Shown: piece by piece, positions 26,079 through 52,708 of the stretch
How positions within the stretch are numbered: position 1 is the stretch's first letter
Layout: each line of letters starts with the position of its first letter
Assembly (NCBI RefSeq): GCF_963675165.1
Contig: NW_026986601.1
Span: 79,001-143,000, forward strand
Source of the DNA: Halichondria panicea
Lineage: Eukaryota; Porifera; Demospongiae; Suberitida; Halichondriidae
Direction: 5' to 3'
Length of the DNA stretch: 64,000 nt
The notes under the pieces: model-generated
The model's input: only the letters and a program-made list of their open reading frames with translations
The model's database searches: none
What the model was told of the DNA's origin: nothing
Program-made: the position numbers and the translations under genes

Positions 26079-27019
26079 CCCTTTCCTTGCCATTCGTGAA
26101 ATCTGGAACAGGAGCGTCTTTAGGTCCATCAATTAGTGTGGATCCGGCCTCACCACGCCTCCAAGTCATTCTATTAGTCTAGATCCGGCTAGCAATTCTA
26201 GCTGGGACTCCCAGTTCTAGCTCCTTTTGTTTAGCGTGTCAGAGACTGGGAGAAGATGATTGGCACTCCCTGGCTCCTTTGGATGTACAGCTGTCCAGAT
26301 CCCTAGAACATACCCTCCATTCTGACGAGTTATCAGTGCATAGGGTGCTTACTAGATTCTTGCCAGCCAGTACAGTTCAAGCTACACACAGCACCGCTCA
26401 ACTATTCTCTACCCCATTATCTAGCTAAATCTGGTCCAACTAGACAGCAGACACAGCTAGTTAATTCAGTAAAGCCAGGGGTAGCCCTACTTCTACGGTT
26501 GTTCAGTACCCACGGTAACAATTCCTCTGGGCTGGGCTAACTAGTTGAGCCACGCCTCCCAATTCTCAAGGCTAGGTACATGTCTCTGTCTAGCTGCTTC
26601 TTCAGCTTCTTGCTCAGTTTTGTGGCTTAGAGAAAGGCCAGCTACTCAGGGGGAAGAGTCCAGATGAAAGTCTGGCAGCCAGGTGACGTCCAAACGGTCA
26701 GTTATTCTTTCCACCAACTTTTTAATCTAGTCTAGTCCTGCTTGCACTGCTACTACTACTGCTGCCTACTGCTGCTACTCTTCCTAGCTAGTCAAAGGTT
26801 TCTTTTTTTTTTTTTTTTTTTTTTATAACTACATATGCACAAAGAGACATCAAAGCTTACATCAAAGGACACAGATTTTTAGCCTACTTGACTGATAAGG
26901 CGGTTACCTAGACTACAGTTTGTTTGTCAGGGAGGAGCTCACATACAACTTCATCTAATTCATCATAACGATTCCTTACCCATTGTTGTAATTTCTACAA
27001 CAGATTGCCAAGGAAAGAG
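26079..27019. repeat. F segment, copy 1 (941 bp), left border of the transposase array
   Basis: It begins CCCTTTCCTTGCCATTCGTG and ends, in reverse complement, CTCTTTCCTTGGCAATCTGT, giving imperfect inverted ends (11 of the first 13 match). It contains a poly-T run (about 26802-26823) and no ORF of note. The right junction is ATAA (27020-27023); the left flank here is ATAG. Copies 2 and 3 have the same 941-bp length and differ by only a few bases where I compared them. It could be a separate non-autonomous DNA element that inserted into the transposase unit (ATAA duplication), or the 5' region of the element itself. Confidence 0.8.
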
Positions 27020-27185
27020 ATAATTACAACAGAATTTACAACAGAGTGGGTTAGGGCCTCTCATATACAACTGAATTCTTTATCACAATTTTATTAATCA
27101 TTGAAATAATACCCCTTTCCTCCCCTCTCCAAGGCCAATTTAGACCAGGAGAGTACCATCTAACAAAAATCAGTCACACAGCACA

Positions 27186-30100
27186 TTAGCTAGCACATGT
27201 GTGTCCGATAACAGAGTGTCCTTTGCATATTCTTATGCGACAGTGGGGACATGCCATTGCAGTGTGTTGCTGCTCTCTGCTAGGGATCTTCTCCCGAACA
27301 CACACTTGACAGCGCCCACGAGACACTCCGACACTATTTGCACTCACACGTGCGCCCTGTGATGGGGGGAAAACGATATTTAGACTGGCCAGACCTGAGG
27401 CACTGCTACGAGTACGTGGCACACCCAATAGACTATGAATTAGTTCCAATCGAAACCCTTTCAAAGGCATGGCCTTTGAACCCACCCTGACACAGTTGTG
27501 CCTGTATAGAATGTATGCATTATTCACACTAACGTCAAGGAATTGAAAGAAAATCCTGAACCAATACCGCCGACACTTTCTATCGTACCCATAGGTTTTC
27601 CTCATACGCCCTGTATTGTCAACTCCTCCCATGTACATGTTATATGCAGGGAGACAGGGGGGGACACTCTGAGAGCGTAGGGTACCGTCTTTGTGCATTC
27701 GCATTACAGTGTGGGGCATATGGTCAGGGAACACATTTGTTGCAAAGGACACAACTCTACGGTCGTTAAACATAGAGTAAGAAATATCACCAACAGTCAT
27801 GGACGTATAGTCACCTTTGTCGAGTACCACATCCTTAAGACTTGCTGGGAAACCAGCAGCATTCTTCAAAATTGTGCCGACAGTAAACACATTTTGCTTA
27901 GCCAACTCTTCTATCAATGGACCGGACGTGTAAAAGTTGTCCATGTACACAACATGCTGATGACCATAAAAAGGAGTGAGTAAACGATGGACTACATTTT
28001 TCACAAGCCCTTTCACAGCTATCTTTTTCCCAGAGGAATCGGTGAGCTTACCACTGTATACATCAAACACACAGAGATACCCACAGCATGAACATGAGCA
28101 GCACCATACCTTGAACCCCAGTTTAACAGGCTTCTTGGGCATATGAATTTTCCCGCTTTTACGACCCTTGTACTTTATCATCATCTCATCAACGGAAAGC
28201 TCCTGACTGGGATTATACCTCATGAAGTAGTTGGCTTTAAGAGTCTCTAAAACAGTTTTTAGCTTGCTAGTTACCTTACGTGCATCAGTGATGGACGTAT
28301 TGTCCTCACAGTGCAGATACCGCCATAAACTTTGGAACCTTTTGAGCGACATTACATTGCTCACACATTGTACACCTAAAAGGGGATCCTTGGACCAGTA
28401 GTCCGTAATTTCAGGGAGCCTATGAATGCCCATCTCTAGTACAATCCCCAAAAACACCCACAATTCGGCACTGTTTGTAGCTGACCAACCCTTAGCACCA
28501 CACTGCCTAGCGTACAGGTTGGTCTGTTCGGCTATGTACTCACACAAACTATCGGGCCAAAGTAACTTAACAAAATCTAGGCATGGAGTTACAGACGGAT
28601 CAAGTTGATCGACAGGACCGACCACACCGCCAAAGACGGGGTATCTTCCTGTGGACTTAGCTTTTTGGAGTCCATTGTCCCTCGCCAGCTTCCTCCGTTT
28701 GGGAGTCGGAGCCATGCCATCGACCATTTCGTCATCATCCTCCACTGCAGCATCTGCACGGAAACAAAGCATGAATATCATTAGAGTACCACAAGAGTGC
28801 TCGCCAGTGCAGGTGGGGGACAGGCTATGAATGTCATTATGTGGGCGTACCACACGCTAGTGGTGCTATGAATATCATTAACTACTGGGGGGGGGTTAGG
28901 GCGCATAGGTAGAGTACAGCAGAGGAAAAGGCTCGTCCACATCAAAGGCTCGTGGGAGGAGCCCAACAAACCACAACAACCATGAATGTCATTAGTGGGC
29001 GTACCACACGCTAGTGGTGCTATGAATATCATTAACTACTGGGGGGGGGGTTAGGGCGCATAGGTACAGTACAGCAGAGGAAAAGGCTCGTCCCCATCAA
29101 AGGCTCGTGGGAGGATCCCAACAAACCACAACAACCATGAATGTCATTATGTGGGCGTACCGCACGCTAGTGGTGCTATGAATATCATTAACTACTGGGG
29201 GGGGGTTAGGGCACATAGGTACAGTACAGCAGAGGAAAAGGCTCGTCCCCATCAAAGGCTCGTGGGAGGATCCCAACAAACCACAACAACCATGAATGTC
29301 ATTACGTGGGCGTACCGCACGCTAGTGGTGCTATGAATATCATTAACTACTGGGGGGGGGGGGGGTTTAGGGCACATAGGTACAGTACAGCAGAGGAAAA
29401 GGCTCGTCCACATCAAAGGCTCGTGGGAGGATCCCAACAAACCACAACAACCATGAATGTCATTACGTGGGCGTACCACACGCTAGTGGTGCTATGAATA
29501 TCATTAACTACTGGGGGGGGGGTTAGGGCACACAGGTACAGTACAGCAGAGGAAAAGGCTCGTCCACATCAAAGGCTCGTGGGAGGAGCCCAACAAACCA
29601 CAACAACCATGAATGTCATTACGTGGGCGTACCACACGCTAGTGGTGCTATGAATATCATTAACTACTGGGGGGGGGGGGGGTTAGGGCACACAGGTACA
29701 GTACAGCAGAGGAAAAGGCTCGTCCACATCAAAGGCTCGTGGGAGGAGCCCAACAAACCACAACAACCATGAATGTCATTACGTGGGCGTACCACACGCT
29801 AGTGGTGCTATGAATATCATTAACTACTGGGGGGGGGGGTTAGGGCACATAGGTACAGTACAGCAGAGGAAAAGGCTCGTCCACATCAAAGGCTCGTGGG
29901 AGGAGCCCAACAAACCACAACAACCATGAATGTCATTACGTGGGCGTACCACACGCTAGTGGTGCTATGAATATCATTAACTACTGGGGGGGGTTAGGGC
30001 ACATAGGTACAGTACAGCAGAGGAAAAGGCTCGTCCACATCAAAGGCTCGTGGGAGGAGCCCAACAAACCACAACAACCATGAATGTCATTACGTGGGCG

Positions 30101-31092
30101 TACCACACGCTAGTGGTGCTATGAATATCATTAACTACTGGGGGGGGGGGGGGTTAGGGCACATAGGTACAGTACAGCAGAGGAAAAGGCTCGTCCACAT
30201 CAAAGGCTCGTGGGAGGAGCCCAACAAACCACAACAACCATGAATGTCATTACGTGGGCGTACCGCACGAGTGTGGTGCTATGAATATAATTAACTACTG
30301 GGGGGGGGGGGGTTAGGGCACACAGGTACAGTACAGCAGAGGAAAAGGCTCGTGGAAAAGGCTCGTCCACATCAAAGGCTCGTGGGAGGAGCCCAACAAA
30401 CCACAACAACCATGAATGTCATTATGTGGGCGTACCACACGCTAGTGGTGCTATGAATATCATTAACTACTGGGGGGGGGTTAGGGCACATAGGTACAGC
30501 AGAGGAAAAGGCTCGTCCACATCAAAGGCTCGTGGGAGGAGCCCAACAAACCACAACAACCATGAATGTCATTATGTGGGCGTACCGCACGCTAGTGGTG
30601 CTATGAATATAATTAACTACTGGGGGGGGTTAGGGCACATAGGTACAGTACAGCAGAGGAAAAGGCTCGTCCACATCAAAGGCTCGTGGGAGGAGCCCAA
30701 CAAACCACAACAACCATGAATATCAATATGTGGGCGTAATGCACGCGTGTGGTGCTATGAATATCATTAACAACTGGGGGTTAGGGTACAGTACAGTACT
30801 GCAGTCAAGGCGACGCCAAAAAGAGGCTCACACAATGTAGGAGGAGCCACAAAAGGCATGCACATGACGCCTCCGCCAAAAAGAGGCCACATATCGTTAG
30901 GGCATCACAATGCTGCCTCCCCAACCACTATTTAATGGTGCAATGACACAAACCTGAATCACTCTCCAGATCTGTCTCAAAATCGTCATCACTGGGCTCG
31001 TCATGGTCATAACAGACTTCCTGGTCCTCCTCAAGCTCTCTGACAGTGTGCTCAAGCTCGCTGACAGTGTCAAGGAGTCCAATCAGCTCCAT
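27186..31092 (-). CDS. piggyBac-type transposase, copy 1 (two exons)
   Basis: Exon 1 is 31092-30954 (46 codons plus one base, MELIGLLDTVSELEHTVREL and an acidic tail). Exon 2 is 28753-27186. Donor CAG|GTTTGT and acceptor TTTCCGTGCAG join as G+AT, restoring an open frame of 568 residues, close to the roughly 600 usual for the family. Features in joined numbering: short heptad-like Leu stretch (about 9-21), basic PKRRK (64-68), then the DDE_Tnp_1_7 core with Asp235 (SVDEMMIKYKGR), Asp318 (VVYMDNFYTSGPL) and Asp425 (GGVDNTG). These correspond to the three catalytic Asp of piggyBac. A C-terminal Cys/His cluster (528-566, RCQVC, CPHC, CKGH, HTC) fits the family's Cys-rich DNA-binding domain. A poly(A) signal AATAAA lies at 27095-27090. 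The longer open frame that starts inside the intron (MVRPHNDIH) is a shadow of the repeat. Piggybac enzymes cut and paste DNA at TTAA; no TTAA-flanked termini are visible here. Confidence 0.9.
28827..30788. repeat. Intronic G-rich minisatellite, copy 1 (about 12-13 units)
   Basis: Units of 153-173 bp, each with ATGAATGTCATTA, an imperfect palindrome CCACACGCTAGTGGTG, ATGAATATCATTA, a run of 7-13 G followed by TTAGGG, then a GC-richer part with AAAGGCTCGTGGGAGGAGCC. It fills nearly all of the 2200-bp intron between the two transposase exons. Units differ mainly in G-run length and a few point changes. ORFs on both strands across it are repeat by-products. Confidence 0.9.
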
Positions 31093-31280
31093 TTGGATTC
31101 AAAAGTTTTGAAAAATAATTACAACAGAATTTACAACAGAGTGGGTTAGGGCCTCTCATATACAACTGAATTCTTTATCACAATTTTATTAATCATTGAA
31201 ATAATACCCCTTTCCTCCCCTCTCCAAGGCCAATTTAGACCAGGAGAGTACCATCTAACAAAAATCAGTCACACAGCACA

Positions 31281-34200
31281 TTAGCTAGCACATGTGTGTC
31301 CGATAACAGAGTGTCCTTTGCATATTCTTATGCGACAGTGGGGACATGCCATTGCAGTGTGTTGCTGCTCTCTGCTAGGGATCTTCTCCCGAACACACAC
31401 TTGACAGCGCCCACGAGACACTCCGACACTATTTGCACTCACACGTGCGCCCTGTGATGGGGGGAAAACGATATTTAGACTGGCCAGACCTGAGGCACTG
31501 CTACGAGTACGTGGCACACCCAATAGACTATGAATTAGTTCCAATCGAAACCCTTTCAAAGGCATGGCCTTTGAACCCACCCTGACACAGTTGTGCCTGT
31601 ATAGAATGTATGCATTATTCACACTAACGTCAAGGAATTGAAAGAAAATCCTGAACCAATACCGCCGACACTTTCTATCGTACCCATAGGTTTTCCTCAT
31701 ACGCCCTGTATTGTCAACTCCTCCCATGTACATGTTATATGCAGGGAGACAGGGGGGGACACTCTGAGAGCGTAGGGTACCGTCTTTGTGCATTCGCATT
31801 ACAGTGTGGGGCATATGGTCAGGGAACACATTTGTTGCAAAGGACACAACTCTACGGTCGTTAAACATAGAGTAAGAAATATCACCAACAGTCATGGACG
31901 TATAGTCACCTTTGTCGAGTACCACATCCTTAAGACTTGCTGGGAAACCAGCAGCATTCTTCAAAATTGTGCCGACAGTAAACACATTTTGCTTAGCCAA
32001 CTCTTCTATCAATGGACCGGACGTGTAAAAGTTGTCCATGTACACAACATGCTGATGACCATAAAAAGGAGTGAGTAAACGATGGACTACATTTTTCACA
32101 AGCCCTTTCACAGCTATCTTTTTCCCAGAGGAATCGGTGAGCTTACCACTGTATACATCAAACACACAGAGATACCCACAGCATGAACATGAGCAGCACC
32201 ATACCTTGAACCCCAGTTTAACAGGCTTCTTGGGCATATGAATTTTCCCGCTTTTACGACCCTTGTACTTTATCATCATCTCATCAACGGAAAGCTCCTG
32301 ACTGGGATTATACCTCATGAAGTAGTTGGCTTTAAGAGTCTCTAAAACAGTTTTTAGCTTGCTAGTTACCTTACGTGCATCAGTGATGGACGTATTGTCC
32401 TCACAGTGCAGATACCGCCATAAACTTTGGAACCTTTTGAGCGACATTACATTGCTCACACATTGTACACCTAAAAGGGGATCCTTGGACCAGTAGTCCG
32501 TAATTTCAGGGAGCCTATGAATGCCCATCTCTAGTACAATCCCCAAAAACACCCACAATTCGGCACTGTTTGTAGCTGACCAACCCTTAGCACCACACTG
32601 CCTAGCGTACAGGTTGGTCTGTTCGGCTATGTACTCACACAAACTATCGGGCCAAAGTAACTTAACAAAATCTAGGCATGGAGTTACAGACGGATCAAGT
32701 TGATCGACAGGACCGACCACACCGCCAAAGACGGGGTATCTTCCTGTGGACTTAGCTTTTTGGAGTCCATTGTCCCTCGCCAGCTTCCTCCGTTTGGGAG
32801 TCGGAGCCATGCCATCGACCATTTCGTCATCATCCTCCACTGCAGCATCTGCACGGAAACAAAGCATGAATATCATTAGAGTACCACAAGAGTGCTCGCC
32901 AGTGCAGGTGGGGGACAGGCTATGAATGTCATTATGTGGGCGTACCACACGCTAGTGGTGCTATGAATATCATTAACTACTGGGGGGGGGTTAGGGCGCA
33001 TAGGTAGAGTACAGCAGAGGAAAAGGCTCGTCCACATCAAAGGCTCGTGGGAGGAGCCCAACAAACCACAACAACCATGAATGTCATTAGTGGGCGTACC
33101 ACACGCTAGTGGTGCTATGAATATCATTAACTACTGGGGGGGGGTTAGGGCGCATAGGTACAGTACAGCAGAGGAAAAGGCTCGTCCCCATCAAAGGCTC
33201 GTGGGAGGATCCCAACAAACCACAACAACCATGAATGTCATTATGTGGGCGTACCGCACGCTAGTGGTGCTATGAATATCATTAACTACTGGGGGGGGGT
33301 TAGGGCACATAGGTACAGTACAGCAGAGGAAAAGGCTCGTCCCCATCAAAGGCTCGTGGGAGGATCCCAACAAACCACAACAACCATGAATGTCATTACG
33401 TGGGCGTACCGCACGCTAGTGGTGCTATGAATATCATTAACTACTGGGGGGGGGGGGGGTTTAGGGCACATAGGTACAGTACAGCAGAGGAAAAGGCTCG
33501 TCCACATCAAAGGCTCGTGGGAGGATCCCAACAAACCACAACAACCATGAATGTCATTACGTGGGCGTACCACACGCTAGTGGTGCTATGAATATCATTA
33601 ACTACTGGGGGGGGGGTTAGGGCACACAGGTACAGTACAGCAGAGGAAAAGGCTCGTCCACATCAAAGGCTCGTGGGAGGAGCCCAACAAACCACAACAA
33701 CCATGAATGTCATTACGTGGGCGTACCACACGCTAGTGGTGCTATGAATATCATTAACTACTGGGGGGGGGGGGGGTTAGGGCACACAGGTACAGTACAG
33801 CAGAGGAAAAGGCTCGTCCACATCAAAGGCTCGTGGGAGGAGCCCAACAAACCACAACAACCATGAATGTCATTACGTGGGCGTACCACACGCTAGTGGT
33901 GCTATGAATATCATTAACTACTGGGGGGGGGGGTTAGGGCACATAGGTACAGTACAGCAGAGGAAAAGGCTCGTCCACATCAAAGGCTCGTGGGAGGAGC
34001 CCAACAAACCACAACAACCATGAATGTCATTACGTGGGCGTACCACACGCTAGTGGTGCTATGAATATCATTAACTACTGGGGGGGGTTAGGGCACATAG
34101 GTACAGTACAGCAGAGGAAAAGGCTCGTCCACATCAAAGGCTCGTGGGAGGAGCCCAACAAACCACAACAACCATGAATGTCATTACGTGGGCGTACCAC

Positions 34201-35187
34201 ACGCTAGTGGTGCTATGAATATCATTAACTACTGGGGGGGGGGGGGGGTTAGGGCACATAGGTACAGTACAGCAGAGGAAAAGGCTCGTCCACATCAAAG
34301 GCTCGTGGGAGGAGCCCAACAAACCACAACAACCATGAATGTCATTACGTGGGCGTACCGCACGAGTGTGGTGCTATGAATATAATTAACTACTGGGGGG
34401 GGGGGGGTTAGGGCACACAGGTACAGTACAGCAGAGGAAAAGGCTCGTGGAAAAGGCTCGTCCACATCAAAGGCTCGTGGGAGGAGCCCAACAAACCACA
34501 ACAACCATGAATGTCATTATGTGGGCGTACCACACGCTAGTGGTGCTATGAATATCATTAACTACTGGGGGGGGGTTAGGGCACATAGGTACAGCAGAGG
34601 AAAAGGCTCGTCCACATCAAAGGCTCGTGGGAGGAGCCCAACAAACCACAACAACCATGAATGTCATTATGTGGGCGTACCGCACGCTAGTGGTGCTATG
34701 AATATAATTAACTACTGGGGGGGGTTAGGGCACATAGGTACAGTACAGCAGAGGAAAAGGCTCGTCCACATCAAAGGCTCGTGGGAGGAGCCCAACAAAC
34801 CACAACAACCATGAATATCAATATGTGGGCGTAATGCACGCGTGTGGTGCTATGAATATCATTAACAACTGGGGGTTAGGGTACAGTACAGTACTGCAGT
34901 CAAGGCGACGCCAAAAAGAGGCTCACACAATGTAGGAGGAGCCACAAAAGGCATGCACATGACGCCTCCGCCAAAAAGAGGCCACATATCGTTAGGGCAT
35001 CACAATGCTGCCTCCCCAACCACTATTTAATGGTGCAATGACACAAACCTGAATCACTCTCCAGATCTGTCTCAAAATCGTCATCACTGGGCTCGTCATG
35101 GTCATAACAGACTTCCTGGTCCTCCTCAAGCTCTCTGACAGTGTGCTCAAGCTCGCTGACAGTGTCAAGGAGTCCAATCAGCTCCAT
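31281..35187 (-). CDS. piggyBac-type transposase, copy 2
   Basis: Exon 1 35187-35049, exon 2 32848-31281, intron 2200 bp. Spacing from copy 1 is 4095 bp. The exon 2 protein is identical to copy 1. The intron shares even rare variants with copy 1 (TAGGTAGAGTACAG in the unit nearest exon 2), so the two differ essentially in G-run lengths. Poly(A) signal 31190-31185. Its ATG is only about 26 bp from the start of copy 3's 3' region, so any promoter must lie in the neighbouring unit. Confidence 0.9.
32922..34883. repeat. Intronic minisatellite, copy 2
   Basis: Same units and order as in copy 1, with single-base differences in G-tract length. Confidence 0.9.
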
Positions 35188-35375
35188 TTGGATTCAAAAG
35201 TTTTGAAAAATAATTACAACAGAATTTACAACAGAGTGGGTTAGGGCCTCTCATATACAACTGAATTCTTTATCACAATTTTATTAATCATTGAAATAAT
35301 ACCCCTTTCCTCCCCTCTCCAAGGCCAATTTAGACCAGGAGAGTACCATCTAACAAAAATCAGTCACACAGCACA

Positions 35376-38300
35376 TTAGCTAGCACATGTGTGTCCGATA
35401 ACAGAGTGTCCTTTGCATATTCTTATGCGACAGTGGGGACATGCCATTGCAGTGTGTTGCTGCTCTCTGCTAGGGATCTTCTCCCGAACACACACTTGAC
35501 AGCGCCCACGAGACACTCCGACACTATTTGCACTCACACGTGCGCCCTGTGATGGGGGGAAAACGATATTTAGACTGGCCAGACCTGAGGCACTGCTACG
35601 AGTACGTGGCACACCCAATAGACTATGAATTAGTTCCAATCGAAACCCTTTCAAAGGCATGGCCTTTGAACCCACCCTGACACAGTTGTGCCTGTATAGA
35701 ATGTATGCATTATTCACACTAACGTCAAGGAATTGAAAGAAAATCCTGAACCAATACCGCCGACACTTTCTATCGTACCCATAGGTTTTCCTCATACGCC
35801 CTGTATTGTCAACTCCTCCCATGTACATGTTATATGCAGGGAGACAGGGGGGGACACTCTGAGAGCGTAGGGTACCGTCTTTGTGCATTCGCATTACAGT
35901 GTGGGGCATATGGTCAGGGAACACATTTGTTGCAAAGGACACAACTCTACGGTCGTTAAACATAGAGTAAGAAATATCACCAACAGTCATGGACGTATAG
36001 TCACCTTTGTCGAGTACCACATCCTTAAGACTTGCTGGGAAACCAGCAGCATTCTTCAAAATTGTGCCGACAGTAAACACATTTTGCTTAGCCAACTCTT
36101 CTATCAATGGACCGGACGTGTAAAAGTTGTCCATGTACACAACATGCTGATGACCATAAAAAGGAGTGAGTAAACGATGGACTACATTTTTCACAAGCCC
36201 TTTCACAGCTATCTTTTTCCCAGAGGAATCGGTGAGCTTACCACTGTATACATCAAACACACAGAGATACCCACAGCATGAACATGAGCAGCACCATACC
36301 TTGAACCCCAGTTTAACAGGCTTCTTGGGCATATGAATTTTCCCGCTTTTACGACCCTTGTACTTTATCATCATCTCATCAACGGAAAGCTCCTGACTGG
36401 GATTATACCTCATGAAGTAGTTGGCTTTAAGAGTCTCTAAAACAGTTTTTAGCTTGCTAGTTACCTTACGTGCATCAGTGATGGACGTATTGTCCTCACA
36501 GTGCAGATACCGCCATAAACTTTGGAACCTTTTGAGCGACATTACATTGCTCACACATTGTACACCTAAAAGGGGATCCTTGGACCAGTAGTCCGTAATT
36601 TCAGGGAGCCTATGAATGCCCATCTCTAGTACAATCCCCAAAAACACCCACAATTCGGCACTGTTTGTAGCTGACCAACCCTTAGCACCACACTGCCTAG
36701 CGTACAGGTTGGTCTGTTCGGCTATGTACTCACACAAACTATCGGGCCAAAGTAACTTAACAAAATCTAGGCATGGAGTTACAGACGGATCAAGTTGATC
36801 GACAGGACCGACCACACCGCCAAAGACGGGGTATCTTCCTGTGGACTTAGCTTTTTGGAGTCCATTGTCCCTCGCCAGCTTCCTCCGTTTGGGAGTCGGA
36901 GCCATGCCATCGACCATTTCGTCATCATCCTCCACTGCAGCATCTGCACGGAAACAAAGCATGAATATCATTAGAGTACCACAAGAGTGCTCGCCAGTGC
37001 AGGTGGGGGACAGGCTATGAATGTCATTATGTGGGCGTACCACACGCTAGTGGTGCTATGAATATCATTAACTACTGGGGGGGGGGGGTTTAGGGCACAT
37101 AGGTACAGTACAGCAGAGGAAAAGGCTCGTCCACATCAAAGGCTCGTGGGAGGAGCCCAACAAACCACAACAACCATGAATGTCATTAGTGGGCGTACCG
37201 CACGCTAGTGGTGCTATGAATATCATTAACTACTGGGGGGGGGGGGGGGTTAGGGCGCATAGGTACAGTACAGCAGAGGAAAAGGCTCGTCCCCATCAAA
37301 GGCTCGTGGGAGGATCCCAACAAACCACAACAACCATGAATGTCATTATGTGGGCGTACCGCACGCTAGTGGTGCTATGAATATCATTAACTACTGGGGG
37401 GGGGGGGGGGGGGGTTAGGGCACATAGGTACAGTACAGCAGAGGAAAAGGCTCGTCCCCATCAAAGGCTCGTGGGAGGAGCCCAACAAACCACAACAACC
37501 ATGAATGTCATTACGTGGGCGTACCACACGCTAGTGGTGCTATGAATATCATTAACTACTGGGGGGGGGGGTTAGGGCACATAGGTACAGTACAGCAGAG
37601 GAAAAGGCTCGTCCACATCAAAGGCTCGTGGGAGGAGCCCAACAAACCACAACAACCATGAATGTCATTACGTGGGCGTACCGCACGCTAGTGGTGCTAT
37701 GAATATCATTAACTACTGGGGGGGAGGGGGTTAGGGCACATAGGTACAGTACAGCAGAGGAAAAGGCTCGTCCCCATCAAAGGCTCGTGGGAGGAGCCCA
37801 ACAAACCACAACAACCATGAATGTCATTACGTGGGCGTACCACACGCTAGTGGTGCTATGAATATCATTAACTACTGGGGGGGGGGGGGTTAGGGCACAT
37901 AGGTACAGTACAGCAGAGGAAAAGGCTCGTCCCCATCAAAGGCTCGTGGGAGGAGCCCAACAAACCACAACAACCATGAATGTCATTACGTGGGCGTACC
38001 ACACGCTAGTGGTGCTATGAATATCATTAACTACTGGGGGGGGGGGTTAGGGCACATAGGTACAGTACAGCAGAGGAAAAGGCTCGTGGGAGGAGCCCAA
38101 CAAACCACAACAACCATGAATGTCATTACGTGGGCGTACCGCACGAGTGTGGTGCTATGAATATAATTAACTACTGGGGGGGGGGGGTTAGGGCACACAG
38201 GTACAGTACAGCAGAGGAAAAGGCTCGTGGAAAAGGCTCGTCCCCATCAAAGGCTCGTGGGAGGAGCCCAACAAACCACAACAACCATGAATGTCATTAT

Positions 38301-38973
38301 GTGGGCGTACCACACGCTAGTGGTGCTATGAATATCATTAACTACTGGGGGGGGGGTTAGGGCACATAGGTACAGTACAGCAGAGGAAAAGGCTCGTCCA
38401 CATCAAAGGCTCGTGGGAGGAGCCCAACAAACCACAACAACCATGAATGTCATTATGTGGGCGTACCGCACGCTAGTGGTGCTATGAATATAATTAACTA
38501 CTGGGGGGGGTTAGGGCACATAGGTACAGTACAGCAGAGGAAAAGGCTCGTCCACATCAAAGGCTCGTGGGAGGAGCCCAACAAACCACAACAACCATGA
38601 ATATCAATATGTGGGCGTAATGCACGCGTGTGGTGCTATGAATATCATTAACAACTGGGGGTTAGGGTACAGTACAGTACTGCAGTCAAGGCGACGCCAA
38701 AAAGAGGCTCACACAATGTAGGAGGAGCCACAAAAGGCATGCACATGACGCCTCCGCCAAAAAGAGGCCACATATCGTTAGGGCATCACAATGCTGCCTC
38801 CCCAACCACTATTTAATGGTGCAATGACACAAACCTGAATCACTCTCCAGATCTGTCTCAAAATCGTCATCACTGGGCTCGTCATGGTCATAACAGACTT
38901 CCTGGTCCTCCTCAAGCTCTCTGACAGTGTGCTCAAGCTCGCTGACAGTGTCAAGGAGTCCAATCAGCTCCAT
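35376..38973 (-). CDS. piggyBac-type transposase, copy 3
   Basis: Exon 1 38973-38835, exon 2 36943-35376, intron 1891 bp (two units shorter than copies 1 and 2). The exon 2 protein is identical. Poly(A) signal 35285-35280. Its exon 1 abuts F segment 2, so F2 occupies the promoter position of this copy. Confidence 0.9.
37017..38669. repeat. Intronic minisatellite, copy 3
   Basis: About 11 units. G-runs reach 18-20 (37397-37414 region). One unit is internally shortened (38080-38095), where the CCACATCAAAGGCTCGT segment is missing. The same unit structure occurs in copy 4. Confidence 0.9.
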
Positions 38974-39940: not shown

Positions 39941-40106
39941 ATAATTACAACAGAATTTACAACAGAGTGGGTTAGGGCCTCTCATATACAACTGAATTCT
40001 TTATCACAATTTTATTAATCATTGAAATAATACCCCTTTCCTCCCCTCTCCAAGGCCAATTTAGACCAGGAGAGTACCATCTAACAAAAATCAGTCACAC
40101 AGCACA

Positions 40107-43100
40107 TTAGCTAGCACATGTGTGTCCGATAACAGAGTGTCCTTTGCATATTCTTATGCGACAGTGGGGACATGCCATTGCAGTGTGTTGCTGCTCTCTG
40201 CTAGGGATCTTCTCCCGAACACACACTTGACAGCGCCCACGAGACACTCCGACACTATTTGCACTCACACGTGCGCCCTGTGATGGGGGGAAAACGATAT
40301 TTAGACTGGCCAGACCTGAGGCACTGCTACGAGTACGTGGCACACCCAATAGACTATGAATTAGTTCCAATCGAAACCCTTTCAAAGGCATGGCCTTTGA
40401 ACCCACCCTGACACAGTTGTGCCTGTATAGAATGTATGCATTATTCACACTAACGTCAAGGAATTGAAAGAAAATCCTGAACCAATACCGCCGACACTTT
40501 CTATCGTACCCATAGGTTTTCCTCATACGCCCTGTATTGTCAACTCCTCCCATGTACATGTTATATGCAGGGAGACAGGGGGGGACACTCTGAGAGCGTA
40601 GGGTACCGTCTTTGTGCATTCGCATTACAGTGTGGGGCATATGGTCAGGGAACACATTTGTTGCAAAGGACACAACTCTACGGTCGTTAAACATAGAGTA
40701 AGAAATATCACCAACAGTCATGGACGTATAGTCACCTTTGTCGAGTACCACATCCTTAAGACTTGCTGGGAAACCAGCAGCATTCTTCAAAATTGTGCCG
40801 ACAGTAAACACATTTTGCTTAGCCAACTCTTCTATCAATGGACCGGACGTGTAAAAGTTGTCCATGTACACAACATGCTGATGACCATAAAAAGGAGTGA
40901 GTAAACGATGGACTACATTTTTCACAAGCCCTTTCACAGCTATCTTTTTCCCAGAGGAATCGGTGAGCTTACCACTGTATACATCAAACACACAGAGATA
41001 CCCACAGCATGAACATGAGCAGCACCATACCTTGAACCCCAGTTTAACAGGCTTCTTGGGCATATGAATTTTCCCGCTTTTACGACCCTTGTACTTTATC
41101 ATCATCTCATCAACGGAAAGCTCCTGACTGGGATTATACCTCATGAAGTAGTTGGCTTTAAGAGTCTCTAAAACAGTTTTTAGCTTGCTAGTTACCTTAC
41201 GTGCATCAGTGATGGACGTATTGTCCTCACAGTGCAGATACCGCCATAAACTTTGGAACCTTTTGAGCGACATTACATTGCTCACACATTGTACACCTAA
41301 AAGGGGATCCTTGGACCAGTAGTCCGTAATTTCAGGGAGCCTATGAATGCCCATCTCTAGTACAATCCCCAAAAACACCCACAATTCGGCACTGTTTGTA
41401 GCTGACCAACCCTTAGCACCACACTGCCTAGCGTACAGGTTGGTCTGTTCGGCTATGTACTCACACAAACTATCGGGCCAAAGTAACTTAACAAAATCTA
41501 GGCATGGAGTTACAGACGGATCAAGTTGATCGACAGGACCGACCACACCGCCAAAGACGGGGTATCTTCCTGTGGACTTAGCTTTTTGGAGTCCATTGTC
41601 CCTCGCCAGCTTCCTCCGTTTGGGAGTCGGAGCCATGCCATCGACCATTTCGTCATCATCCTCCACTGCAGCATCTGCACGGAAACAAAGCATGAATATC
41701 ATTAGAGTACCACAAGAGTGCTCGCCAGTGCAGGTGGGGGACAGGCTATGAATGTCATTATGTGGGCGTACCACACGCTAGTGGTGCTATGAATATCATT
41801 AACTACTGGGGGGGGGGGGTTTAGGGCACATAGGTACAGTACAGCAGAGGAAAAGGCTCGTCCACATCAAAGGCTCGTGGGAGGAGCCCAACAAACCACA
41901 ACAACCATGAATGTCATTAGTGGGCGTACCGCACGCTAGTGGTGCTATGAATATCATTAACTACTGGGGGGGGGGGGGGGTTAGGGCGCATAGGTACAGT
42001 ACAGCAGAGGAAAAGGCTCGTCCCCATCAAAGGCTCGTGGGAGGATCCCAACAAACCACAACAACCATGAATGTCATTATGTGGGCGTACCGCACGCTAG
42101 TGGTGCTATGAATATCATTAACTACTGGGGGGGGGGGGGGGGGGGTTAGGGCACATAGGTACAGTACAGCAGAGGAAAAGGCTCGTCCCCATCAAAGGCT
42201 CGTGGGAGGAGCCCAACAAACCACAACAACCATGAATGTCATTACGTGGGCGTACCACACGCTAGTGGTGCTATGAATATCATTAACTACTGGGGGGGGG
42301 GGTTAGGGCACATAGGTACAGTACAGCAGAGGAAAAGGCTCGTCCACATCAAAGGCTCGTGGGAGGAGCCCAACAAACCACAACAACCATGAATGTCATT
42401 ACGTGGGCGTACCGCACGCTAGTGGTGCTATGAATATCATTAACTACTGGGGGGGAGGGGGTTAGGGCACATAGGTACAGTACAGCAGAGGAAAAGGCTC
42501 GTCCCCATCAAAGGCTCGTGGGAGGAGCCCAACAAACCACAACAACCATGAATGTCATTACGTGGGCGTACCACACGCTAGTGGTGCTATGAATATCATT
42601 AACTACTGGGGGGGGGGGGGTTAGGGCACATAGGTACAGTACAGCAGAGGAAAAGGCTCGTCCCCATCAAAGGCTCGTGGGAGGAGCCCAACAAACCACA
42701 ACAACCATGAATGTCATTACGTGGGCGTACCACACGCTAGTGGTGCTATGAATATCATTAACTACTGGGGGGGGGGGTTAGGGCACATAGGTACAGTACA
42801 GCAGAGGAAAAGGCTCGTGGGAGGAGCCCAACAAACCACAACAACCATGAATGTCATTACGTGGGCGTACCGCACGAGTGTGGTGCTATGAATATAATTA
42901 ACTACTGGGGGGGGGGGGTTAGGGCACACAGGTACAGTACAGCAGAGGAAAAGGCTCGTGGAAAAGGCTCGTCCCCATCAAAGGCTCGTGGGAGGAGCCC
43001 AACAAACCACAACAACCATGAATGTCATTATGTGGGCGTACCACACGCTAGTGGTGCTATGAATATCATTAACTACTGGGGGGGGGGTTAGGGCACATAG

Positions 43101-43704
43101 GTACAGTACAGCAGAGGAAAAGGCTCGTCCACATCAAAGGCTCGTGGGAGGAGCCCAACAAACCACAACAACCATGAATGTCATTATGTGGGCGTACCGC
43201 ACGCTAGTGGTGCTATGAATATAATTAACTACTGGGGGGGGTTAGGGCACATAGGTACAGTACAGCAGAGGAAAAGGCTCGTCCACATCAAAGGCTCGTG
43301 GGAGGAGCCCAACAAACCACAACAACCATGAATATCAATATGTGGGCGTAATGCACGCGTGTGGTGCTATGAATATCATTAACAACTGGGGGTTAGGGTA
43401 CAGTACAGTACTGCAGTCAAGGCGACGCCAAAAAGAGGCTCACACAATGTAGGAGGAGCCACAAAAGGCATGCACATGACGCCTCCGCCAAAAAGAGGCC
43501 ACATATCGTTAGGGCATCACAATGCTGCCTCCCCAACCACTATTTAATGGTGCAATGACACAAACCTGAATCACTCTCCAGATCTGTCTCAAAATCGTCA
43601 TCACTGGGCTCGTCATGGTCATAACAGACTTCCTGGTCCTCCTCAAGCTCTCTGACAGTGTGCTCAAGCTCGCTGACAGTGTCAAGGAGTCCAATCAGCT
43701 CCAT
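40107..43704 (-). CDS. piggyBac-type transposase, copy 4
   Basis: Exon 1 43704-43566, exon 2 41674-40107, intron 1891 bp. Intron length and unit order equal copy 3, its neighbour across F2, not copy 1. The exon 2 protein is identical. Poly(A) signal 40016-40011. Confidence 0.9.
41748..43400. repeat. Intronic minisatellite, copy 4
   Basis: Matches copy 3 unit by unit, including the shortened unit (near 42811) and the interrupted G-run GGGGGGAGGGGG. Confidence 0.9.
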
Positions 43705-43892
43705 TTGGATTCAAAAGTTTTGAAAAATAATTACAACAGAATTTACAACAGAGTGGGTTAGGGCCTCTCATATACAACTGAATTCTTTATCACAATTTTA
43801 TTAATCATTGAAATAATACCCCTTTCCTCCCCTCTCCAAGGCCAATTTAGACCAGGAGAGTACCATCTAACAAAAATCAGTCACACAGCACA

Positions 43893-46800
43893 TTAGCTAG
43901 CACATGTGTGTCCGATAACAGAGTGTCCTTTGCATATTCTTATGCGACAGTGGGGACATGCCATTGCAGTGTGTTGCTGCTCTCTGCTAGGGATCTTCTC
44001 CCGAACACACACTTGACAGCGCCCACGAGACACTCCGACACTATTTGCACTCACACGTGCGCCCTGTGATGGGGGGAAAACGATATTTAGACTGGCCAGA
44101 CCTGAGGCACTGCTACGAGTACGTGGCACACCCAATAGACTATGAATTAGTTCCAATCGAAACCCTTTCAAAGGCATGGCCTTTGAACCCACCCTGACAC
44201 AGTTGTGCCTGTATAGAATGTATGCATTATTCACACTAACGTCAAGGAATTGAAAGAAAATCCTGAACCAATACCGCCGACACTTTCTATCGTACCCATA
44301 GGTTTTCCTCATACGCCCTGTATTGTCAACTCCTCCCATGTACATGTTATATGCAGGGAGACAGGGGGGGACACTCTGAGAGCGTAGGGTACCGTCTTTG
44401 TGCATTCGCATTACAGTGTGGGGCATATGGTCAGGGAACACATTTGTTGCAAAGGACACAACTCTACGGTCGTTAAACATAGAGTAAGAAATATCACCAA
44501 CAGTCATGGACGTATAGTCACCTTTGTCGAGTACCACATCCTTAAGACTTGCTGGGAAACCAGCAGCATTCTTCAAAATTGTGCCGACAGTAAACACATT
44601 TTGCTTAGCCAACTCTTCTATCAATGGACCGGACGTGTAAAAGTTGTCCATGTACACAACATGCTGATGACCATAAAAAGGAGTGAGTAAACGATGGACT
44701 ACATTTTTCACAAGCCCTTTCACAGCTATCTTTTTCCCAGAGGAATCGGTGAGCTTACCACTGTATACATCAAACACACAGAGATACCCACAGCATGAAC
44801 ATGAGCAGCACCATACCTTGAACCCCAGTTTAACAGGCTTCTTGGGCATATGAATTTTCCCGCTTTTACGACCCTTGTACTTTATCATCATCTCATCAAC
44901 GGAAAGCTCCTGACTGGGATTATACCTCATGAAGTAGTTGGCTTTAAGAGTCTCTAAAACAGTTTTTAGCTTGCTAGTTACCTTACGTGCATCAGTGATG
45001 GACGTATTGTCCTCACAGTGCAGATACCGCCATAAACTTTGGAACCTTTTGAGCGACATTACATTGCTCACACATTGTACACCTAAAAGGGGATCCTTGG
45101 ACCAGTAGTCCGTAATTTCAGGGAGCCTATGAATGCCCATCTCTAGTACAATCCCCAAAAACACCCACAATTCGGCACTGTTTGTAGCTGACCAACCCTT
45201 AGCACCACACTGCCTAGCGTACAGGTTGGTCTGTTCGGCTATGTACTCACACAAACTATCGGGCCAAAGTAACTTAACAAAATCTAGGCATGGAGTTACA
45301 GACGGATCAAGTTGATCGACAGGACCGACCACACCGCCAAAGACGGGGTATCTTCCTGTGGACTTAGCTTTTTGGAGTCCATTGTCCCTCGCCAGCTTCC
45401 TCCGTTTGGGAGTCGGAGCCATGCCATCGACCATTTCGTCATCATCCTCCACTGCAGCATCTGCACGGAAACAAAGCATGAATATCATTAGAGTACCACA
45501 AGAGTGCTCGCCAGTGCAGGTGGGGGACAGGCTATGAATGTCATTATGTGGGCGTACCACACGCTAGTGGTGCTATGAATATCATTAACTACTGGGGGGG
45601 GTTAGGGCGCATAGGTACAGTACAGCAGAGGAAAAGGCTCGTCCACATCAAAGGCTCGTGGGAGGAGCCCAACAAACCACAACAACCATGAATGTCATTA
45701 GTGGGCGTACCACACGCTAGTGGTGCTATGAATATCATTAACTACTGGGGGGGGGGGGGGGTTAGGGCGCATAGGTACAGTACAGCAGAGGAAAAGGCTC
45801 GTCCCCATCAAAGGCTCGTGGGAGGATCCCAACAAACCACAACAACCATGAATGTCATTACGTGGGCGTACCGCACGCTAGTGGTGCTATGAATATCATT
45901 AACTACTGGGGGGGGGGGGGTTTAGGGCACATAGGTACAGTACAGCAGAGGAAAAGGCTCGTCCACATCAAAGGCTCGTGGGAGGAGCCCAACAAACCAC
46001 AAAATGTCATTATGTGGGCGTACCGCACGCTAGTGGTGCTATGAATATAATTAACTACTGGGGGGGGTTAGGGCACATAGGTACAGTACAGCAGAGGAAA
46101 AGGCTCGTCCCCATCAAAGGCTCGTGGGAGGATCCCAACAAACCACAACAACCATGAATGTCATTATGTGGGCGTACCGCACGCTAGTGGTGCTATGAAT
46201 ATCATTAACTACTGGGGGGGGTTAGGGCACATAGGTACAGTACAGCAGAGGAAAAGGCTCGTCCACATCAAAGGCTCGTGGGAGGAGCCCAACAAACCAC
46301 AACAACCATGAATGTCATTATGTGGGCGTACCGCACGCTAGTGGTGCTATGAATATCATTAACTACTGGGGGGGGGGTTAGGGCACATAGGTACAGTACA
46401 GCAGAGGAAAAGGCTCGTCCCCATCAAAGGCTCGTGGGAGGAGCCCAACAAACCACAACAACCATGAATGTCATTATGTGGGCGTACCACACGCTAGTGG
46501 TGCTATGAATATCATTAACTACTGGGGGGGGGGGGGTTAGGGCACATAGGTACAGTACAGCAGAGGAAAAGGCTCGTCCACATCAAAGGCTCGTGGGAGG
46601 AGCCCAACAAACCACAACAACCATGAATGTCATTACGTGGGCGTACCACACGCTAGTGGTGCTATGAATATCATTAACTACTGGGGGGGGGGGGGGTTAG
46701 GGCACATAGGTACAGTACAGCAGAGGAAAAGGCTCGTCCACATCAAAGGCTCGTGGGAGGAGCCCAACAAACCACAACAACCATGAATGTCATTACGTGG

Positions 46801-47801
46801 GCGTACCACACGCTAGTGGTGCTATGAATATCATTAACTACTGGGGGGGGGGGGGTTAGGGCACATAGGTACAGTACAGCAGAGGAAAAGGCTCGTCCAC
46901 ATCAAAGGCTCGTGGGAGGAGCCCAACAAACCACAACAACCATGAATGTCATTACGTGGGCGTACCGCACGAGTGTGGTGCTATGAATATAATTAACTAC
47001 TGGGGGGGGGGGGGTTAGGGCACACAGGTACAGTACAGCAGAGGAAAAGGCTCGTGGAAAAGGCTCGTCCCCATCAAAGGCTCGTGGGAGGAGCCCAACA
47101 AACCACAACAACCATGAATGTCATTATGTGGGCGTACCACACGCTAGTGGTGCTATGAATATCATTAACTACTGGGGGGGGGGGTTAGGGCACATAGGTA
47201 CAGTACAGCAGAGGAAAAGGCTCGTCCACATCAAAGGCTCGTGGGAGGAGCCCAACAAACCACAACAACCATGAATGTCATTATGTGGGCGTACCGCACG
47301 CTAGTGGTGCTATGAATATAATTAACTACTGGGGGGGGTTAGGGCACATAGGTACAGTACAGCAGAGGAAAAGGCTCGTCCACATCAAAGGCTCGTGGGA
47401 GGAGCCCAACAAACCACAACAACCATGAATATCAATATGTGGGCGTAATGCACGCGTGTGGTGCTATGAATATCATTAACAACTGGGGGTTAGGGTACAG
47501 TACAGTACTGCAGTCAAGGCGACGCCAAAAAGAGGCTCACACAATGTAGGAGGAGCCACAAAAGGCATGCACATGACGCCTCCGCCAAAAAGAGGCCACA
47601 TATCGTTAGGGCATCACAATGCTGCCTCCCCAACCACTATTTAATGGTGCAATGACACAAACCTGAATCACTCTCCAGATCTGTCTCAAAATCGTCATCA
47701 CTGGGCTCGTCATGGTCATAACAGACTTCCTGGTCCTCCTCAAGCTCTCTGACAGTGTGCTCAAGCTCGCTGACAGTGTCAAGGAGTCCAATCAGCTCCA
47801 T
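43893..47801 (-). CDS. piggyBac-type transposase, copy 5
   Basis: Exon 1 47801-47663, exon 2 45460-43893, intron 2202 bp. The exon 2 protein is identical to the others. Poly(A) signal 43802-43797. Confidence 0.9.
45534..47497. repeat. Intronic minisatellite, copy 5
   Basis: A different unit series from copies 1-4. One unit lacks the CAACCATG bridge (46002-46004), fusing ACCACAAA to ATGTCATTATG. About 13 units. Confidence 0.9.
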
Positions 47802-47989
47802 TTGGATTCAAAAGTTTTGAAAAATAATTACAACAGAATTTACAACAGAGTGGGTTAGGGCCTCTCATATACAACTGAATTCTTTATCACAATTTTATTA
47901 ATCATTGAAATAATACCCCTTTCCTCCCCTCTCCAAGGCCAATTTAGACCAGGAGAGTACCATCTAACAAAAATCAGTCACACAGCACA

Positions 47990-50900
47990 TTAGCTAGCAC
48001 ATGTGTGTCCGATAACAGAGTGTCCTTTGCATATTCTTATGCGACAGTGGGGACATGCCATTGCAGTGTGTTGCTGCTCTCTGCTAGGGATCTTCTCCCG
48101 AACACACACTTGACAGCGCCCACGAGACACTCCGACACTATTTGCACTCACACGTGCGCCCTGTGATGGGGGGAAAACGATATTTAGACTGGCCAGACCT
48201 GAGGCACTGCTACGAGTACGTGGCACACCCAATAGACTATGAATTAGTTCCAATCGAAACCCTTTCAAAGGCATGGCCTTTGAACCCACCCTGACACAGT
48301 TGTGCCTGTATAGAATGTATGCATTATTCACACTAACGTCAAGGAATTGAAAGAAAATCCTGAACCAATACCGCCGACACTTTCTATCGTACCCATAGGT
48401 TTTCCTCATACGCCCTGTATTGTCAACTCCTCCCATGTACATGTTATATGCAGGGAGACAGGGGGGGACACTCTGAGAGCGTAGGGTACCGTCTTTGTGC
48501 ATTCGCATTACAGTGTGGGGCATATGGTCAGGGAACACATTTGTTGCAAAGGACACAACTCTACGGTCGTTAAACATAGAGTAAGAAATATCACCAACAG
48601 TCATGGACGTATAGTCACCTTTGTCGAGTACCACATCCTTAAGACTTGCTGGGAAACCAGCAGCATTCTTCAAAATTGTGCCGACAGTAAACACATTTTG
48701 CTTAGCCAACTCTTCTATCAATGGACCGGACGTGTAAAAGTTGTCCATGTACACAACATGCTGATGACCATAAAAAGGAGTGAGTAAACGATGGACTACA
48801 TTTTTCACAAGCCCTTTCACAGCTATCTTTTTCCCAGAGGAATCGGTGAGCTTACCACTGTATACATCAAACACACAGAGATACCCACAGCATGAACATG
48901 AGCAGCACCATACCTTGAACCCCAGTTTAACAGGCTTCTTGGGCATATGAATTTTCCCGCTTTTACGACCCTTGTACTTTATCATCATCTCATCAACGGA
49001 AAGCTCCTGACTGGGATTATACCTCATGAAGTAGTTGGCTTTAAGAGTCTCTAAAACAGTTTTTAGCTTGCTAGTTACCTTACGTGCATCAGTGATGGAC
49101 GTATTGTCCTCACAGTGCAGATACCGCCATAAACTTTGGAACCTTTTGAGCGACATTACATTGCTCACACATTGTACACCTAAAAGGGGATCCTTGGACC
49201 AGTAGTCCGTAATTTCAGGGAGCCTATGAATGCCCATCTCTAGTACAATCCCCAAAAACACCCACAATTCGGCACTGTTTGTAGCTGACCAACCCTTAGC
49301 ACCACACTGCCTAGCGTACAGGTTGGTCTGTTCGGCTATGTACTCACACAAACTATCGGGCCAAAGTAACTTAACAAAATCTAGGCATGGAGTTACAGAC
49401 GGATCAAGTTGATCGACAGGACCGACCACACCGCCAAAGACGGGGTATCTTCCTGTGGACTTAGCTTTTTGGAGTCCATTGTCCCTCGCCAGCTTCCTCC
49501 GTTTGGGAGTCGGAGCCATGCCATCGACCATTTCGTCATCATCCTCCACTGCAGCATCTGCACGGAAACAAAGCATGAATATCATTAGAGTACCACAAGA
49601 GTGCTCGCCAGTGCAGGTGGGGGACAGGCTATGAATGTCATTATGTGGGCGTACCACACGCTAGTGGTGCTATGAATATCATTAACTACTGGGGGGGTTA
49701 GGGCGCATAGGTACAGTACAGCAGAGGAAAAGGCTCGTCCACATCAAAGGCTCGTGGGAGGAGCCCAACAAACCACAACAACCATGAATGTCATTAGTGG
49801 GCGTACCACACGCTAGTGGTGCTATGAATATCATTAACTACTGGGGGGGGGGGGTTAGGGCGCATAGGTACAGTACAGCAGAGGAAAAGGCTCGTCCCCA
49901 TCAAAGGCTCGTGGGAGGATCCCAACAAACCACAACAACCATGAATGTCATTATGTGGGCGTACCGCACGCTAGTGGTGCTATGAATATAATTAACTACT
50001 GGGGGGGGTTAGGGCACATAGGTACAGTACAGCAGAGGAAAAGGCTCGTCCCCATCAAAGGCTCGTGGGAGGATCCCAACAAACCACAACAACCATGAAT
50101 GTCATTATGTGGGCGTACCGCACGCTAGTGGTGCTATGAATATCATTAACTACTGGGGGGGGTTAGGGCACATAGGTACAGTACAGCAGAGGAAAAGGCT
50201 CGTCCACATCAAAGGCTCGTGGGAGGAGCCCAACAAACCACAACAACCATGAATGTCATTATGTGGGCGTACCGCACGCTAGTGGTGCTATGAATATCAT
50301 TAACTACTGGGGGGGGGGTTAGGGCACATAGGTACAGTACAGCAGAGGAAAAGGCTCGTCCCCATCAAAGGCTCGTGGGAGGAGCCCAACAAACCACAAC
50401 AACCATGAATGTCATTATGTGGGCGTACCACACGCTAGTGGTGCTATGAATATCATTAACTACTGGGGGGGGGGGGTTAGGGCACATAGGTACAGTACAG
50501 CAGAGGAAAAGGCTCGTCCACATCAAAGGCTCGTGGGAGGAGCCCAACAAACCACAACAACCATGAATGTCATTACGTGGGCGTACCACACGCTAGTGGT
50601 GCTATGAATATCATTAACTACTGGGGGGGGGGGGGGGTTAGGGCACATAGGTACAGTACAGCAGAGGAAAAGGCTCGTCCACATCAAAGGCTCGTGGGAG
50701 GAGCCCAACAAACCACAACAACCATGAATGTCATTACGTGGGCGTACCACACGCTAGTGGTGCTATGAATATCATTAACTACTGGGGGGGGGGGGTTAGG
50801 GCACATAGGTACAGTACAGCAGAGGAAAAGGCTCGTCCACATCAAAGGCTCGTGGGAGGAGCCCAACAAACCACAACAACCATGAATGTCATTACGTGGG

Positions 50901-51741
50901 CGTACCGCACGAGTGTGGTGCTATGAATATAATTAACTACTGGGGGGGGGGGGGTTAGGGCACACAGGTACAGTACAGCAGAGGAAAAGGCTCGTGGAAA
51001 AGGCTCGTCCCCATCAAAGGCTCGTGGGAGGAGCCCAACAAACCACAACAACCATGAATGTCATTATGTGGGCGTACCACACGCTAGTGGTGCTATGAAT
51101 ATCATTAACTACTGGGGGGGGGGGTTAGGGCACATAGGTACAGTACAGCAGAGGAAAAGGCTCGTCCACATCAAAGGCTCGTGGGAGGAGCCCAACAAAC
51201 CACAACAACCATGAATGTCATTATGTGGGCGTACCGCACGCTAGTGGTGCTATGAATATAATTAACTACTGGGGGGGGTTAGGGCACATAGGTACAGTAC
51301 AGCAGAGGAAAAGGCTCGTCCACATCAAAGGCTCGTGGGAGGAGCCCAACAAACCACAACAACCATGAATATCAATATGTGGGCGTAATGCACGCGTGTG
51401 GTGCTATGAATATCATTAACAACTGGGGGTTAGGGTACAGTACAGTACTGCAGTCAAGGCGACGCCAAAAAGAGGCTCACACAATGTAGGAGGAGCCACA
51501 AAAGGCATGCACATGACGCCTCCGCCAAAAAGAGGCCACATATCGTTAGGGCATCACAATGCTGCCTCCCCAACCACTATTTAATGGTGCAATGACACAA
51601 ACCTGAATCACTCTCCAGATCTGTCTCAAAATCGTCATCACTGGGCTCGTCATGGTCATAACAGACTTCCTGGTCCTCCTCAAGCTCTCTGACAGTGTGC
51701 TCAAGCTCGCTGACAGTGTCAAGGAGTCCAATCAGCTCCAT
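47990..51741 (-). CDS. piggyBac-type transposase, copy 6
   Basis: Exon 1 51741-51603, exon 2 49557-47990, intron 2045 bp, one unit shorter than copy 5. The exon 2 protein is identical. Poly(A) signal 47899-47894. Exon 1 abuts F segment 3. Confidence 0.9.
49631..51437. repeat. Intronic minisatellite, copy 6
   Basis: About 12 units, closest to copy 5 in unit order but lacking one unit and lacking the fused unit. Confidence 0.9.
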
Positions 51742-51767
51742 TTGGATTCAAAAGTTTTGAAAAATAA

Positions 51768-52708
51768 CCCTTTCCTTGCCATTCGTGAAATCTGGAACAG
51801 GAGCGTCTTTAGGTCGATCAATTAGTGTGGATCCCGCCTCACCACGCCTCCAAGTCATTCTATTAGTCTAGATCCGGCTAGCAATTCTAGCTGGGACTCC
51901 CAGTTCTAGCTCCTTTTGTTTAGCGTGTCAGAGACTGGGAGAAGATGATTGGCACTCCCTGGCTCCTTTGGATGTACAGCTGTCCAGATCCCTAGAACAT
52001 ACCCTCCATTCTGACGAGTTATCAGTGCATAGGGTGCTTACTAGATTCTTGCCAGCCAGTACAGTTCAAGCTACACACAGCACCGCTCAACTATTCTCTA
52101 CCCCATTATCTAGCTAAATCTGGTCCAACTAGACAGCAGACACAGCTAGTTAATTCAGTAAAGCCAGGGGTAGCCCTACTTCTACGGTTGTTCAGTACCC
52201 ACGGTAACAATTCCTCTGGGCTGGGCTAACTAGTTGAGCCACGCCTCCCAATTCTCAAGGCTAGGTACATGTCTCTGTCTAGCTGCTTCTTCAGCTTCTT
52301 GCTCAGTTTTGTGGCTTAGAGAAAGGCCAGCTACTCAGGGGGAAGAGTCCAGATGAAAGTCTGGCAGCCAGGTGACGTCCAAACGGTCAGTTATTCTTTC
52401 CACCAACTTTTTAATCTAGTCTAGTCCTGCTTGCACTGCTACTACTACTGCTGCCTACTGCTGCTACTCTTCCTAGCTAGTCAAAGGTTTCTTTTTTTTT
52501 TTTTTTTTTTTTTATAACTACATATGCACAAAGAGACATCAAAGCTTACATCAAAGGACACAGATTTTTAGCCTACTTGACTGATAAGGCGGTTACCTAG
52601 ACTACAGTTTGTTTGTCAGGGAGGAGCTCACATACAACTTCATCTAATTCATCATAACGATTCCTTACCCATTGTTGTAATTTCTACAACAGATTGCCAA
52701 GGAAAGAG
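51768..52708. repeat. F segment, copy 3 (941 bp), right border of the array
   Basis: The left flank is array DNA ending GAAAAATAA; the right flank is ATAATGGAAGC, non-array DNA. With F1 it shows that the array both begins and ends with a complete F. One base differs from F2 in GTGGATCCCGCC. Confidence 0.8.

Follow-up and report, generated by a model that had tools for sequence, protein, structure and literature searches.

Chains of two alternating modules, one bearing a piggyBac-superfamily transposase gene, in the sponge Halichondria panicea

How does a transposase gene of the cut-and-paste kind come to stand six times in a head-to-tail row? The question is raised by a locus of the sponge Halichondria panicea on contig NW_026986601.1. 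The stretch analysed, hereafter the window (64,000 nucleotides, C22:79001-143000), ends where its 143-kb contig ends, and at positions 26079-52708 it holds two kinds of module, a 941-bp element (F) and a larger module with a transposase gene (U), arranged as F-U-U-U-F-U-U-U-F in a single orientation. We consider it fairly probable that these modules belong to a young two-module system of the piggyBac superfamily, whose chains occupy four-base NTAN sites and grow head-to-tail in place. The predicted intron of each U holds a minisatellite, and the order of its units, with G-run lengths removed, serves as a barcode; the three barcodes of the window are called A, B and C in the following list.

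26079-27019, + strand: F1, 941-bp inverted-repeat element, with ATAG in front
27020-27023: ATAA linker between F1 and U1
27024-31114, - strand: U1, transposase gene module, barcode A
27186-28856, - strand: exon-2 open reading frame of U1, 556 codons from stop to stop, Pfam DDE_Tnp_1_7
31281, 35376, 40107, 43893 and 47990: starts of the matching exon-2 open reading frames of U2 to U6
28754-30953, - strand: predicted intron of U1, with a minisatellite of ~155-bp units with variable G-runs (the barcode)
30954-31092, - strand: predicted exon 1 of U1 (prediction only), its ATG 22 bp inside the U end
31119-35209, - strand: U2, gene module, barcode A
35214-38995, - strand: U3, gene module, barcode B
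39000-39940, + strand: F2, middle F element
39945-43726, - strand: U4, gene module, barcode B, at edit distance 0 from U3
43731-47823, - strand: U5, gene module, barcode C
47828-51763, - strand: U6, gene module, barcode C minus one repeat unit
51768-52708, + strand: F3, last F element, with ATAA after it
31115-31118, 35210-35213, 38996-38999, 39941-39944, 43727-43730, 47824-47827 and 51764-51767: remaining seven ATAA linkers

These coordinates bear out the order of F elements and genes, and their common orientation, that an initial annotation of the window had proposed, and thousands of 21-mers recur at the offsets of the array, which excludes chance. The annotation had further seen no TTAA junctions and had treated F with three genes as a duplicated higher-order unit. 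Neither view holds: all eight junctions in the window are an exact ATAA, a TTAA-like tetramer, they resemble precise transposon joints, and F-3U is not a unit. The U periods, linker included, are 4095, 4095, 3786, 3786, 4097 and 3940 bp, and the barcode order reads A-A-B-F-B-C-C. U1 thus matches U2, U3 matches U4 across the middle F, and U5 closely resembles U6, which is not the pairing (U1 with U4, U2 with U5, U3 with U6) of a 12.8-kb super-period; barcodes and edit distances together exclude a duplicated F-3U unit, or higher-order repeat, in the window. At another locus, C13_4940, there is the appearance of a duplicated F-U-U block.

As had been claimed, the six exon-2 translations are identical; the 556-codon frames agree in DNA as well as in protein. 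The U protein carries the transposase domain of the piggyBac superfamily (DDE_Tnp_1_7, E 8.8e-69), matches the PDB chains of piggyBat (9c0f, E 3e-34) and piggyBac (6x67, E 1.4e-25) by sequence, and keeps the Asp triad, D223, D306 and D413 of the frame aligning with Asp residues of piggyBat; we take these three to be the catalytic residues. The predicted exon 1 would splice in frame to exon 2 (28753-27186), giving a putative protein of 568 residues. With its ATG 22 bp in from the end, U offers little promoter room before the gene; F might supply a promoter, but it lies behind the gene in F-U pairs, for example at C14_4471. The ends of U, TTACAACAG and TTTTCAAAAC, do not form CCYT inverted repeats; only the transposase places U in the piggyBac superfamily, and the module does not count as a canonical element in full.

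To see beyond the window, the 131-Mb, 39-contig assembly was searched for U by transposase domain (at least 122 matches), by DNA similarity and by end pattern. U occurs at 19 loci, within which all 44 exact U right ends lie; four further right ends, with one mismatch each, come from older copies. The exact module ends at these loci form 60 junctions (23 F-U, 19 U-U, 18 U-F and 0 F-F), in every one of which the linker is ATAA and the order head-to-tail, and no reverse-strand module ends were found among the 19 loci. Eleven of the 19 loci have at least two U, and these hold 37 of the 44 U with an intact right end; the other seven comprise six that adjoin F and one, at C13_5710, that is solitary. 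F and U behave as two mobile modules. A macrosatellite would be a long unit in tandem, restricted to a single locus or a handful of them, and the idea of such an array does not survive this distribution. Of the suggested amplification in preference to dispersal, the tandem multiplication of a piggyBac transposase gene stands, but the modules are also dispersed and target duplications exist; the proposed check of the genome for solo copies did yield solo F, the solitary U and an older U flanked by TTAA (L051). Among the 44 U, 30 encode exactly the exon-2 protein of the window, five another form of 556 residues, four a form of 552, two a form of 417 and three none. The 552-residue form is confined to C1_12775 (L034-L036, C1:12772200-12799900), where a 979-bp deleted U (u) stands beside a full U in repeated F-u-U blocks.

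Module F has inverted repeats CCCTTTCCTTG/CAAGGAAAGAG; compared with CCYT, its left end CCCTTTCCTTG fits, and its right end read inward, CTCTTTCCTTG, is one base off at position 2. Allowing at most one mismatch, the genome contains 148 F left ends, 34 in U loci and 114 outside. Among 20 solo F that were retrieved, 16 are flanked by equal 4-bp duplications (ATAA in eight, TTAT in four, ATAT in three and CTAT in one), whereas the flanks of four do not match. By its length of 941 bp, inverted repeats, many copies and target duplications, F is a miniature inverted-repeat transposable element, and none of its stop-to-stop frames reaches 180 codons. If differences in the T-run are ignored, a single haplotype accounts for 38 of 49 full copies; F is therefore young. 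An origin of F as a deletion derivative of U was considered and rejected, as there is no significant DNA similarity (best E 0.37), a short subterminal site aside.

Where the chains sit is apparent from their flanks. A central TA is found in 38 of 38 flank pairs, with 4-bp duplications as in the piggyBac superfamily, whose classical site is TTAA; here TTAA itself accounts for two of the eight matched chains and for none of the 16 matched solo F. At the 18 loci with both ends known (C12_6195, without a U right end, was left out), the outer tetramers are equal in eight chains, where shuffling predicts 4.1 (p 0.009). Copies of the empty site run through the join for C12_4257 (F-U-F-U-F; 120 of 120 bases), C17_2234 (F-U-F; 119 of 120) and C1_15245 (F-U-U-F-U-F; 79 of 79), and because of these copies the whole chain can be said to occupy one NTAN tetramer. 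The insertion at C17_2234 lies in one copy of a tandem repeat (C17:2223790-2241001, L083 being one copy), many other copies of which match through the same empty site. For the chain on C8 (F-U-F-U-F) the empty site is GTAA within the inverted-repeat end of an older F', a relative of F described below. With 40 candidates scored per search, no empty-site match through the join was found for C1_1666, C5_3821, C1_10158, C1_12775, C13_4940, C14_4471, C7 or C17_1551.

Unequal outer tetramers might be taken as general proof of recombination between loci, a notion that three chains led us to reject. The empty-site copies of C2_6397 and C6_5732 have TTAA, retained on the left, while the right reads ATAA; that of C1_2345 has GTAA, retained on the right, while the left reads ATAA. 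Each is a single site with one tetramer altered to ATAA, which could come from carry-over of a donor tetramer or from loss of an end F. All 10 unmatched loci have ATAA on one side, and ATAA is the commonest chain-end tetramer anyway (16 of 36). As to U without F, the older copies L048-L052 share 97.3-99.3% identity across the main block; TTAA flanks L051 at either end, and L048-L050 and L052 have no clean matched pair. The solo U L025 lies between two ATAA tetramers.

The barcodes record how the chains grew. Among 41 U longer than 2 kb (a set without the truncated copy at C12_6195 and the three modules deleted to 979 bp), mean barcode similarity is 0.64 within loci (46 pairs) and 0.20 between loci (774 pairs), and 0 of 2000 label shuffles reached the within-locus value. 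Since barcodes are mostly common within a locus and mostly different between loci, the chains grew where they landed. A between-locus similarity above 0.6 is seen only for C1_15245 with C13_4940; a discriminating unit is absent from all three U of the former and present in all four of the latter, so each multiplied after the two had parted. Outside the minisatellite, 380 of 561 U pairs have zero differences in 1830 bp and the maximum is three (C1_12775 and C12_4257 were left out of this comparison because of indels). Edit distances between same-type neighbours are 0, 0, 1 and 1 across an F (U-F-U) and 2, 2, 3, 3, 4, 5, 10, 15, 136, 139, 159 and 164 in direct U-U contact, a complete separation of the pairs kept (p 0.00055). 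This is suggestive of an order in which a pair is U-F-U first and becomes U-U later, the U-F-U pairs now present being the younger.

We infer the following course. F and F/U chains would have inserted at 4-bp NTAN sites, U alone probably being mobile too. Unequal recombination between identical modules, above all at F, would duplicate F-U into U-F-U; seamless excision of the inner F, an excision of the piggyBac kind (PMC7351741), would leave U-ATAA-U, and one transposase may act on both modules. Homologous exchange at F, which the initial annotation had raised, is a likely, though presumed, part of this course. Alternatively, new copies might insert into the tetramer beside a resident copy, their ends fixing the orientation, as has been read for Pokey and mPok of Daphnia, where some copies occupy the TTAA next to another one and where duplications of TTAT and ATAA occur (PMC3849761). 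The linker of exactly one target tetramer agrees with that, but with eight ATAA and four TTAT among the 16 matched solo F there is no constant orientation relative to the tetramer, F-F is missing from the 60 junctions, no F pair less than 1 kb apart was seen by eye among 100 listed of the 148 left ends, and neighbours mostly have common barcodes; we regard adjacent insertion as unlikely. Improbable, too, is a route in which excised modules circularise with one ATAA joint and reinsert into a resident copy by homologous recombination: head-to-tail order, exact linkers and common barcodes would be explained equally well, but circles alone do not predict that U-F-U neighbours diverge least.

The window chain itself has two sources. 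All three copies of its left flank (L070-L072) have ATAG and then different sequence, and upstream of all five copies of its right flank the sequence is different again, L069 and L075 having ATAA at the site; because the flank copies continue differently elsewhere, the chain ends come from two target sites. The chain is either a fusion of two insertions through identical modules or an assembly misjoin, and under growth in place it would combine pieces of at least two such insertions. That the assembly joined two separate chains strikes us as rather doubtful. The flanks do belong to two repeats with different continuations elsewhere, the window stops at the contig end, and three barcodes stand in one chain; nevertheless, A, B and C are never more than 0.6 similar to U of the 17 other loci compared, and other chains show matched duplications and empty-site copies. 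The doubt about an assembly artefact voiced at the outset retains force for the two-site flanks of this chain, which a misjoin could explain, but it cannot account for the 18 other U loci.

Several points weigh against chains that grow in place at single sites. The window chain may be a misjoin, the outer tetramers are unequal in 10 of 18 chains, and two loci, the window and C1_12775, have more than one barcode. The edit distances leave out different-type pairs (three of seven U-F-U and seven of 19 U-U), with which the two sets overlap, and pairs within one locus are not independent. Finally, U is without CCYT ends, transposition of solo U rests on few copies (L025, L045 and L051), and the empty-site copy examined for L025 is off by 3 bp.

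A second family repeats the plan. At C1:13141071 (L054), a gene 73% alike in DNA stands in the arrangement F'-ATAA-U'-ATAA-F', the left inverted repeat of F' being CCCTTTACCG; the second F' is far longer than the first and evidently interrupted. Two more places where F' stands next to U' are C3:5453745 and C3:5551032, perhaps a single locus that was duplicated, and two other U' copies (L061 and L063) have ATAA on the left without F'. A subterminal site is common to the F right end and the left ends of U and U' (3 of 500 and 0 of 500 shuffles were as good, respectively); TTACAACAATGGGTA, which the right end of F has in common with the left end of U', is a candidate transposase site. In a whole-length comparison of F with F', 2 of 30 shuffles were as good. 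As the two families are 27% diverged in DNA, their common arrangement may well be old.

Other features of the window lie around the chain. A tandem repeat of 79-bp units (9.5 copies) stands immediately to its right at 53824-54571, and a local repeat (offset 2162 bp) spans ~56500-60500, parts of it similar to positions 52833-53196 in the chain's right flank. Two further open frames are listed here.

9597-10562, - strand: 321-codon open frame with ankyrin repeats
62763-63782, + strand: 339-codon open frame containing an RVT_1 (reverse transcriptase) domain, close to the contig end

Bacterial composite transposons likewise have a jointly moving block enclosed by mobile elements in direct order; here, unlike there, the framing F is without transposase and the framed block carries it. 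Large tandem piggyBac arrays reportedly form and are lost in Aedes aegypti (work by Adelman in 2004), where an introduced vector and not a natural family is concerned. The closest likeness is with Pokey and mPok, an autonomous element and its short non-autonomous relative, which have tandem copies at the target tetramer, TTAT (5.93%) and ATAA (5.09%) duplications and internal repeats, CTAA sites also being reported for Pokey (PMC3849761). Tandems are a minority there, with about 23% of mPok copies and 7% of Pokey copies in the TTAA next to another copy, and are read as insertions beside a copy (PMC3849761), whereas here 37 of 44 U are in chains of at least two U, two module types alternate and barcodes are mostly common. 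The CMITEs of Acropora, short piggyBac-type elements, several with CCCTTT ends, likewise occur in tandem arrays, CMITE-IN being a composite with TTAA in its interior; they differ in being ~100 bp long, in arrays without a transposase gene and in a formation ascribed to replication slippage (PMC2872659). A review on giant and composite transposons (PMC6431247) offers no closer case, and among the titles and opening lines of abstracts listed from the open-licence literature none pointed to chains in which two modules alternate and growth is barcoded.

Tandem piggyBac arrays were known before, but without an agreed mechanism. The H. panicea chains, with their exact linkers, their empty sites, copies that are nearly identical and a barcode that changes fast within the intron, are a natural archive of how chains arise and lengthen, and they offer a testable route, namely recombination at F followed by seamless F excision. 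If this is true, a cut-and-paste element raises its gene dose at one site, and chains can fuse two separate insertions. It is possible, though we put it forward only tentatively, that the chain is the working form and that F is a removable recombination handle for in-place gene duplication, excised afterwards without a trace; selection would then act on the two-module polymer, not on single copies.

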